DNA of 64,000 bases from a virus, in IMG/VR virus record IMGVR_UViG_3300028034_000051, positions 1-64,000 of that record; one strand, given 5' to 3'. The notes beneath the pieces were generated by a model. The model searched no databases and was not told where the DNA came from. It was given only the letters and a program-made list of their open reading frames with translations. Below, piece by piece: positions 28,917-30,801 of this stretch. The first letter of the stretch is position 1. Every line of letters begins with the position of its first letter. The translations under genes and the position numbers were made by a program.

Positions 28917-29777
28917 CTAACCTGTCAGTAATTCTTCAAGTAACTGATCATTTTCTTTTTCAGCTAAGTTCTCTCTAGCACTCTCCTCAGGTGCTTGAAT
29001 TGGAATAGCCATTTTCTTAATTCTGTCTCTTATCCGAAAGTCGTAAGGTAACTTTTCAATTTTGCAGTTACTGCTGAAAATAGTTACTACGTCATGATTA
29101 AGTCTGTGGTTGAGTATATCAAATAAGTGATCATTAGTGTCTACCTTGATAGATTGCTGCCCCATATCGTCTAGTATGAGTACTTCTACTTTTCTAGCTG
29201 CATCTATCAATTCATGAGTCTTAATCTCTGAATTTCGACTGTAAGTGGCTCTTATAGCATTGAGCAAGTCTCCAGCTGTAGCAAACTTAACTTTAGCACC
29301 ATATCCGTATATCAATTCATTTCCAATAGCTGATATTAACATTGTCTTGCCTGATCCAGCAGTCTCTGAATAGAAATATAACCCTTTTTTCTTACCTTTC
29401 ATCTCTACAAACCTAGAAACATATTGCTTAGCTGCTTTCTTGCATACAGCTGCAAACTTACGTGATTCTATTTTTTGATAATGCTCAGCACTAACTTCAA
29501 AATCTTCTATCCTGGTCTCTTGGAACTTATCCAAAATAGTGGCAAACTCTAGCTTTTTGCTAACTATCCTTGCTTCTCGACATTCACATTCTACTGCTAC
29601 TGTTCGACCATCTTCTTCTGCAATCTTGAAACCAGTACCATCACATTCTCCATAAGGGCAACTATGCTTCTTCGAATCCCATGAGTTCAAATGCTTTCTT
29701 TTGGAGTCTTGCTCCTTCATCTTTTGATTCTTCTCCATTATTCTCGCTATCGTCTCTTGAATTTCGTTCATTATCAC
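28917..29777 (-). CDS. dnaC: DnaC-like helicase loader
   Basis: A 286-residue AAA+ ATPase. N-terminal zinc motif (CPYGECDGTGF...VECECRE), Walker A SETAGSGKTM (about 137-146), Walker B VEVLILDDMGQQ, and an arginine-finger region FSSNCKIEKLPYDFRIRDRI. It loads the replicative helicase at the origin. Its start lies 116 bases inside the 3' end of the replication initiator gene, so the two are translationally coupled. Confidence 0.92.
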   Translation of the reverse strand: MIMNEIQETIARIMEKNQKMKEQDSKRKHLNSWDSKKHSCPYGECDGTGFKIAEEDGRTVAVECECREARIVSKKLEFATILDKFQETRIEDFEVSAEHYQKIESRKFAAVCKKAAKQYVSRFVEMKGKKKGLYFYSETAGSGKTMLISAIGNELIYGYGAKVKFATAGDLLNAIRATYSRNSEIKTHELIDAARKVEVLILDDMGQQSIKVDTNDHLFDILNHRLNHDVVTIFSSNCKIEKLPYDFRIRDRIKKMAIPIQAPEESARENLAEKENDQLLEELLTG

Positions 29778-30801
29778 TTCCCCCTTTCAAGACTTCTTTT
29801 GCTTCTTCAATAAAACACTGAACATACTTCCAACTGCCAATGTCTACTCCATTCTTTGGATCACCTCTAGTGTACTTGCCTTGCGATTTCTGACGCATCA
29901 CTGCTAAATCAATAGCTTTCCTAAGTACTTCTGGACTATGTTTTTGCAGATCTTCACTGATCAAATATTCACGGCTAAGAAAATTAACAACTATCTTCTG
30001 TTTAGCATAATCAAGAATTTTTTTGTATGCAGGATGAAAATCGTCATCTTCTTCTGTATCTCTATTATGTAATCTATTACCTTTAACGTTACGTAACGTA
30101 TTTATTTCTTTATTATTAGTTTCTTTAGTACTAGTTTCTTTAGAGCCTCTATGATCAGCGCCATCACTGGGTTCAGAGGATTGTGATGTTAGTGTTTTAC
30201 TAACCTTTTCATCATTACTTGTTAGTGTTTTACTAACCTCATTGTCGTCTTGGGTTAGTATTTTACTAACTTGCTTATCTTCGTTACTTAGTGTTTCACT
30301 AACATTATCACCTGTGTTATTTAGTGTTTTACTAACTTTCTGATGTTCTTCACTTAGTGTTTTACTAACTTTTTTACTACTTAAACTTAGTATTTTACTA
30401 ATATTTTCGTCTGTATTTCCATCTAAATTTGCTTCAAAATCTTCAAATTGACGTTTTAAAATCTTCTTAAAATTGACTTTTCCATTGACTGCTGTCTTTG
30501 ATAATGAGATCCTCCAACGGTCATAATCTTTGTTGAAAGCTATCAAATCATTTGCTTCATCCCAAAATATTACTCTAGTTTCTTTAAGGTAGTTTAGTTC
30601 CTCTGCTATATCAGTTGGATAGATTCCTACTGCTTGAAAGTCACATTTTTTTAATTTGGCAACCTTCTGGTCGAAACCATAACTACATCTCCATATTAAG
30701 AAAAGTATATTATATTGTCTTTTACTAAAGTCTGATTTCATTATTGCTTCTAAAAGTTCATTAGATAACCTTGTAAAGCTATCCGGTTGAGGATTAGCCA
30801 C
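29662..30801 (-). CDS. Phage replication initiator, O-like, with internal iterons
   Basis: A 379-residue protein. Residues 1-110 form the phage replication protein O N-terminal winged helix (SFTRLSNELLEAIMKSDFSK, RQYNILFLIWRCSYGFDQKV). Residues about 133-205 contain seven 11-residue repeats with core VSKTL/VSKIL/VSETL. The C-terminus (about 250-330) resembles DnaD/DnaB-like primosomal domains (SPEVLRKAIDLAVMRQKSQG). The repeats are encoded by dyad DNA iterons, so the gene probably contains its own origin, as in lambda O. It is followed by the DnaC-like loader. Confidence 0.9.
   Translation of the reverse strand: MANPQPDSFTRLSNELLEAIMKSDFSKRQYNILFLIWRCSYGFDQKVAKLKKCDFQAVGIYPTDIAEELNYLKETRVIFWDEANDLIAFNKDYDRWRISLSKTAVNGKVNFKKILKRQFEDFEANLDGNTDENISKILSLSSKKVSKTLSEEHQKVSKTLNNTGDNVSETLSNEDKQVSKILTQDDNEVSKTLTSNDEKVSKTLTSQSSEPSDGADHRGSKETSTKETNNKEINTLRNVKGNRLHNRDTEEDDDFHPAYKKILDYAKQKIVVNFLSREYLISEDLQKHSPEVLRKAIDLAVMRQKSQGKYTRGDPKNGVDIGSWKYVQCFIEEAKEVLKGGSDNERNSRDDSENNGEESKDEGARLQKKAFELMGFEEA
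30086..30402. other. Candidate replication origin: seven 33-bp-spaced iterons plus AT-rich palindrome region
   Basis: Seven copies of a 17-bp dyad, consensus GTTAGTGTTTTACTAAC, start at 30,188, 30,221, 30,254, 30,287, 30,320, 30,353 and 30,386, that is every 33 bp exactly. On the downstream side lie a perfect 14-bp palindrome ACGTTACGTAACGT (30,086-30,099) and a very AT-rich stretch (30,098-30,150), a possible unwinding element. Layout resembles the lambda origin inside gene O. Confidence 0.78.

Follow-up and report, generated by a model that had tools for sequence, protein, structure and literature searches.

A probable lambda-type replication origin inside an O-type phage initiator gene, and co-variation of recognition-helix residues with iteron bases among its relatives

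Described in-gene origins and the initiator gene

The in-gene replication origin of phage lambda is a textbook case, which rests mainly on enterobacterial phages. It lies in gene O and consists of four iterons (ITN1 to ITN4) and an A+T-rich region. In the lambda model, O dimers bind the iterons, the A+T-rich region opens, and the helicase is loaded (PMC5043065, PMC6022878, PMC7466680). The iterons (TCCCTC-AAAAC-GAGGGA, in three frames) are arranged in steps of 20 to 24 bp directly 3' of the DNA-binding domain and are directly adjoined by AAAGA-rich unstable DNA. In the Stx phages P27 and 933W, the origin in gene O contains over four iterons, and the protein is longer as a result; these iterons are those of lambda, and only four of them bind O strongly in vitro (PMC7466680). 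Gene 18 of Salmonella phage P22 belongs to the O-like family and is annotated with a lambda-like in-gene origin, in which GGTAAAAC-type half-sites spaced 20 to 24 bp apart are followed by AAAGACA-rich DNA. In-gene origins are also well known from phages of Firmicutes, and the initiators TP901-1 ORF13 and Tuc2009 Rep2009 of lactococcal phages and SPP1 gp38 bind repeats in their own genes (PMC8965321, PMC6316719). A homologue of the gene analysed here, the DnaD-like gene GBK2_45 of Geobacillus phage GBK2, contains seven GTTGGT-AAAAY-ACCAAC dyads, the last of them out of frame; we found no published description of the GBK2 origin.

Analysis of a 64,000-nucleotide stretch (the window), part of a virus record of 72,413 bases, revealed an initiator gene with the lambda plan (Table 1). 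The first 96 residues of the deduced protein match Phage_rep_O (PF04492; E=5.3e-21, 75.4 bits against a cut-off of 28.7), the Pfam family common to lambda O, and the PHROG match is to O-like replication initiation or DnaD-like helicase loader proteins. No match to DnaB_2 (PF07261) was found in this protein at E values up to 1. The adjoining gene was classified by Pfam and PHROG as a DnaC-like AAA+ helicase loader. It stands where lambda has P, and no match to lambda P was seen in either database. As listed, the loader ORF overlaps the initiator gene by 116 bp (29662 to 29777), and a later start codon is possible. The initiator gene is preceded by genes for an MBL-fold hydrolase, a RecT-like annealing protein, and an SbcC-like protein. 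An AlphaFold2 model of the N-domain, generated from 65 sequences (pLDDT 81), has a winged helix-turn-helix whose third helix comprises residues 62 to 74. The model matches CAP DNA-binding domains in the VIA list (Z 8.4, rmsd 1.6 Å over 64 residues), and no O-family structure is among the matches of that list. Searching the PDB by sequence revealed no solved relative, and a Foldseek search yielded generic winged helices only, with no E value below 0.001.

The array in the window shares with lambda the 6-bp arms, the AAAAC spacer, the position directly 3' of the DNA-binding domain, and the unstable DNA that follows; P22 resembles this plan as well. As in the Stx phages, more than four iterons lengthen the protein. 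The window differs from lambda in having seven sites at 33 bp, in its arms, in the C-terminal part of the protein, and in the position of the unstable element, which lies about 45 bp further on. A spacing of about 20 to 24 bp, a trait of lambda and P22 that is not counted as defining the family, was thus not found. The arms differ from those of P22, and GBK2 differs in its GTTGGT arms, in spacings of 21 to 33 bp, in its DnaB_2 domain, and in having a DnaB-like helicase of its own.

An assignment to the lactococcal and SPP1 replisome-organizer type, instead of the lambda O type, is quite unlikely. Those phages also infect Firmicutes, their initiator genes likewise contain repeats (PMC8965321, PMC6316719), and in r1t a DnaC-like loader follows as it does here (PMC8965321). 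However, the N-domain of the window protein matches Phage_rep_O, and its repeats are dyads with a lambda-like AAAAC spacer, whereas the descriptions of TP901-1, Tuc2009, and SPP1 report direct repeats.

Table 1. Features of the initiator locus in the window
Feature	Position	Strand	Basis
O-type replication initiator gene, 379 aa, GTG start	29662..30801	-	ORF; PF04492; PHROG
N-terminal DNA-binding domain, residues 1-118, predicted winged helix-turn-helix	30448..30801	-	AlphaFold2
Codons of residues 62-64 (P-T-D), start of predicted recognition helix H3; putative specificity residues	30610..30618	-	
Iteron 1, ATTAGTAAAATACTAAG	30386..30402	-	
Iteron 2, GTTAGTAAAACACTAAG	30353..30369	-	
Iteron 3, GTTAGTAAAACACTAAA	30320..30336	-	
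Iteron 4, GTTAGTGAAACACTAAG	30287..30303	-	
Iteron 5, GTTAGTAAAATACTAAC	30254..30270	-	
Iteron 6, GTTAGTAAAACACTAAC	30221..30237	-	
Iteron 7, GTTAGTAAAACACTAAC	30188..30204	-	
GC-richer gap, ~44 bp, from array to unwinding element	30144..30187	-	Stability profile; also in relatives
Putative DNA unwinding element, least stable 50 bp downstream of array	30094..30143	-	Stability, TAAAGA
14-bp palindrome ACGTTACGTAACGT at edge of unwinding element, role unsupported	30086..30099	.	
DnaC-like AAA+ helicase loader, next gene downstream	28917..29777	-	phrog_50 6e-43, IstB_IS21 3e-12

The dyad array and the A-rich element

The seven TTAGT-N5-ACTAA sites are located at 30189, 30222, 30255, 30288, 30321, 30354, and 30387, in steps of exactly 33 bp. 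By chance, 0.16 sites are expected in the 64-kb window, and none of 100 shuffles reached seven; no further site of this form was found elsewhere in the window or in the whole 72,413-base record. The array spans 30188 to 30402, starts at coding nucleotide 399, and lies in frame within the 379-aa ORF (30801 to 29662, minus strand). On the coding strand, the dyad reads GTTAGT-AAAAY-ACTAAC, and the spacers of the seven copies are AAAAC, AAAAT, or GAAAC. The 5-bp arms are perfect in all seven sites, and perfect 6-bp arms are found in three (30188, 30221, and 30254); the remaining four have a mismatch at the outermost base. The encoded peptide repeats V/I-S-K/E-T/I-L every 11 residues. Seven dyads spaced 33 bp apart inside an initiator gene, encoding an 11-residue VSKTL-type repeat, had been described in a sequence-only reading of this DNA, and both descriptions were confirmed by the site positions, the exact step, and the Phage_rep_O match. 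The same reading had placed all sites on one face of the helix, which is not strictly so: at 10.5 bp per turn, 33 bp correspond to 3.14 turns, which turns each site by about 50 degrees relative to the one before and takes the array gradually round the helix.

Relatives of the initiator were collected mostly independently of the repeats, by protein-alignment searches of viral and genome contigs and by profile searches that covered genomes of the order and class to which two of the Firmicutes hosts belong, and of families. An IMG/VR single-protein scan with the full window protein gave no match, and relatives were recovered by DNA pattern and by alignments instead. Eight pattern matches (L005, L006, L008 to L011, L013, and L014) were set aside because their GTTAGT dyads lie outside any long O-like ORF; these GTTAGT-N5-ACTAAC dyads are 35 to 38 bp apart and are possibly unrelated operators. 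Arrays were called with an agnostic dyad finder and scored against synonymous-codon shuffles. Significant in-gene arrays directly 3' of the DNA-binding domain were detected for 85 of 130 unique N-domains; in the other 45, the dyad finder did not find a significant array. In the first survey, arrays start at coding nucleotides 244 to 405 (median, 365), and the commonest spacings are 33 bp (52 cases), 23 bp (38 cases), and 24 bp (26 cases). Across the family, spacings range from 12 to 68 bp. The arms differ between phages and change symmetrically on both sides (GTTAGT, GTTGGT, GTAAGT, GTTACC, and CTTCTT). A final out-of-frame site at 23 bp, common in relatives, is absent from the window array. 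The spacing and number of the sites do set the window apart from lambda, as had been stated from the sequence alone, but the spacing is not peculiar to this phage: 33 bp is the commonest value in its branch of the O family. The clustering of spacings at 23 to 24 and 33 bp is suggestive only of helical phasing, as the Rayleigh optimum is broad. L031 is unlike the rest of the family, with eleven dyads in exact 12-bp steps from coding nucleotide 327 on, encoding a regular STESGTSG repeat. Named hosts of the relatives include Gracilibacillus, Metabacillus, Sutcliffiella, Lentibacillus, and Aneurinibacillus. The branch is common in phages and prophages of Firmicutes.

Stability analysis of the window revealed an A-rich element centred about 70 bp past the array, with three TAAAGA repeats of 15-bp period starting from 30142, 30127, and 30112. 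In the window, the global stability minimum lies inside the array (1.062), closely followed by this element (1.087). Among 82 genes, 66 (14.4 expected) have their least stable 50 bp within a zone from -10 to +150 relative to the end of the array, with a median position of +68.5. Of the 82 unstable stretches, 74 are A-rich on the coding strand. TAAAGA occurs in that zone in 156 copies in 63 genes, compared to 55 copies after synonymous shuffling and 38 copies elsewhere in those 63 genes; in 22 genes, it occurs in two frames. This A+T-rich element is a putative unwinding element, displaced in comparison with that of lambda. An AT-rich unwinding element with a 14-bp palindrome had been proposed earlier. 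The unstable element holds up, and the palindrome ACGTTACGTAACGT does exist in the window but has no counterpart in the closest relative (L020), and it was therefore rejected as part of the element.

Taken together, the seven dyads are very probably the iterons of a lambda-type origin inside the gene of its own initiator, with O-some formation, melting, and helicase loading as in lambda. The O-family gene, the dyads conserved as DNA, the co-variation of the recognition helix described below, and the A-rich element after the array all bear out the earlier comparison with the lambda origin. By analogy with lambda, a dimer of the O-like protein would bind each dyad via its winged helix-turn-helix, with one recognition helix for each of the TTAGT half-sites that flank the AAAAY spacer. 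The array of bound dimers (O-some) would bend and strain the adjacent DNA, and the TAAAGA element would open under negative supercoiling. The DnaC-like protein of the next gene would then load the replicative helicase. While all of these steps are modeled on lambda, dimer binding and O-some formation gain indirect support from the dyad symmetry and from the residue-base co-variation. Seven dimers at 33-bp intervals would presumably form a looser assembly than that of lambda. GC skew, proposed as a check of the origin, is uninformative at the site, with no sign change at 30.2 kb. Between 37001 and 41000, GC and AT skew weaken or flip over about 3 to 4 kb, and the rest of the window has negative GC skew. 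The record may be an incomplete fragment, and a second origin may lie elsewhere.

It is very unlikely that the dyads are instead operators, bound by the O-like protein or a repressor for the transcription of the replication genes, with the origin elsewhere. They do resemble operator sites of helix-turn-helix proteins, and the fold of the N-domain is close to that of CAP-like regulators. However, the sites lie 400 to 615 bp inside the gene and not at a promoter, and an array of four to nine sites ahead of a conserved, unstable, A-rich stretch fits the layout of origins. Moreover, the experimentally known origin of lambda, whose initiator belongs to the same family and whose plan is the same, lies at this place (PMC6022878, PMC5043065). 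The dyads may have an autoregulatory role in addition to that of an origin.

Conservation of the dyads as DNA

Codon usage was compared among the seven 11-codon copies, each with five core and six linker columns. Codons for the same residue are identical in 83 of 83 comparisons in the core columns versus 8 of 18 in the linker columns, and 20,000 synonymous simulations never gave more than 57 identical core comparisons. The core serine is encoded by AGT and the core leucine by CTA in all seven copies; in the other ORFs of the window, these codons account for 31% of the serines and 12% of the leucines. The sequence-only reading would have been contradicted by freely varying synonymous positions; in the core, they are fixed.

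In relatives, the peptides encoded by the dyads vary with the reading frame (VSKTLT, LVKYQL, or DFTKHEV). The last dyad of L012, L017, and GBK2 is shifted to a different frame, where it specifies LVKYQL or LVKHLL, the four near-identical dyads of L030 encode TSQNMK twice and FTKHEV twice, and the four dyads of L036 are spread over all three frames. Clear arrays were found in 46 genes of the first survey, and in 36 of these the sites occupy at least two frames. These comparisons show that the dyads are conserved, and under selection, as DNA and not as peptide. That the 11-residue VSKTL repeat is itself the selected trait, as a structural or binding repeat of the linker with the dyads as a by-product, is extremely unlikely and was rejected on the sequence: the seven window sites do share one frame and encode a regular repeat, but their synonymous positions are fixed, the same dyad gives unrelated peptides in other frames of relatives, and the signal is destroyed by synonymous shuffles. 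A recent functionless tandem duplication of a 33-bp unit, which the exact period in the window might suggest, has a negligible probability and was rejected, because the 17-bp cores alone are conserved while the 16-bp linkers have diverged, and in L020, a relative with 60% identity, the cores persist with spacings of 33, 24, 42, 33, 33, and 33 bp.

Recognition-helix residues, half-site bases, and C-terminal exchange

For 65 genes of the odd-centred class, every N-domain column was compared with every half-site consensus base in a mutual-information (MI) scan. In this whole-domain scan, without preselection of columns, residue 64 ranked first for base 4 (normalised MI, 0.77), residue 62 for base 8 (0.51), and residues 61 and 63 for base 5 (0.48 and 0.41); base 6 is nearly invariant, and its MI rankings mean little. 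Because residues 62 to 74 form the third helix of the model, the presumed recognition helix begins with residues 62 to 64. The residue-base pairs keep a p value of about 0.0002 after removal of near-identical rows and permutation of labels within clades. N64 occurs with T4 in 13 of 13 genes, H64 with C4 in 20 of 23, D64 with G4 in 19 of 25, and K/R62 with G8 in 32 of 32. The window protein has a proline at position 62 and a variable outermost arm base, and relatives with K62 keep G there.

The six exceptions to the D64 rule form the VRIQD clade (L087, L174, L179, L181, L185, and L186), which has mostly GTTACG half-sites, with C at base 4 despite D64. The PATH clade (L029, L030, and L138; CTTCAC) breaks the H64 rule. 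Both exceptions perhaps result from a shifted register of the helix.

The independent-pairs test in treekit, on starred branches, yielded two to four pairs only, too few for significance, and the average never ran against the rule; within-clade permutation and comparison of close pairs were therefore used in its place. Close pairs in separate lineages switch residue and base together: H versus D goes with C versus G in L111/L086, H versus N goes with C versus T in L189/L159, and L175/L144 and L170/L154 are further cases. In leave-one-clade-out prediction, residue 64 predicted base 4 correctly in 42 of 65 genes with ten clades (nearest relative, 27) and in 43 of 52 with three clades (nearest relative, 34). 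Residues 62 and 63 gave no gain over a majority guess with ten clades, so that cross-clade prediction from recognition-helix residues is no more than moderately successful. This correlation is strong indirect evidence, and the best of the analysis, that the initiator reads the repeats in its own gene.

Comparison of the window with L020 revealed N-domains about 79% identical and DNA identity of 76 to 80% from the array end through the unwinding element, falling to background within about 50 bp. From 30101 to 29662, similarity stops immediately past the unwinding element, and the C-terminal parts are dissimilar. The C-terminal end of L020 is a DnaB_2 domain, which is also present in L018, L026, L022, and L046. 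Among 250 pairs whose N-domains share 60% identity or more, 84 have C-terminal parts that fall into different clusters. The origin thus behaves like a dividing line, with a conserved recognition unit on one side and exchangeable C-terminal parts on the other; it is the place where unrelated C-terminal domains are joined.

We favor, with some reserve, the joint reading that residues 61 to 64 form a readable origin code and that the domain and its iterons are a portable cognate unit for C-terminal exchange. According to this code, D, N, or H at position 64 reads G, T, or C at base 4, K or R at position 62 reads G at base 8, and residues 61 and 63 bear on base 5. The in-gene origin would be portable because the domain and iterons travel in one gene segment, with the recombination joint right after the unwinding element. 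A literature search that covered few subscription papers found no prior description of this family-wide recognition pattern.

The probable origin in the window is of the lambda type, but its sites are more numerous and more widely spaced than those of lambda, and its unwinding element is displaced. It is the recognition pattern across the family that may surprise a specialist. Firmicutes genes with the lambda plan are usually annotated only as DnaD-like or O-like. The variation over about 130 genes offers a testable account of the residues that set origin specificity, and it allows origins to be found from sequence alone. It also suggests a reason for an origin inside the gene: the DNA-binding domain and its sites would be kept together under recombination, with the C-terminal half free to be exchanged.
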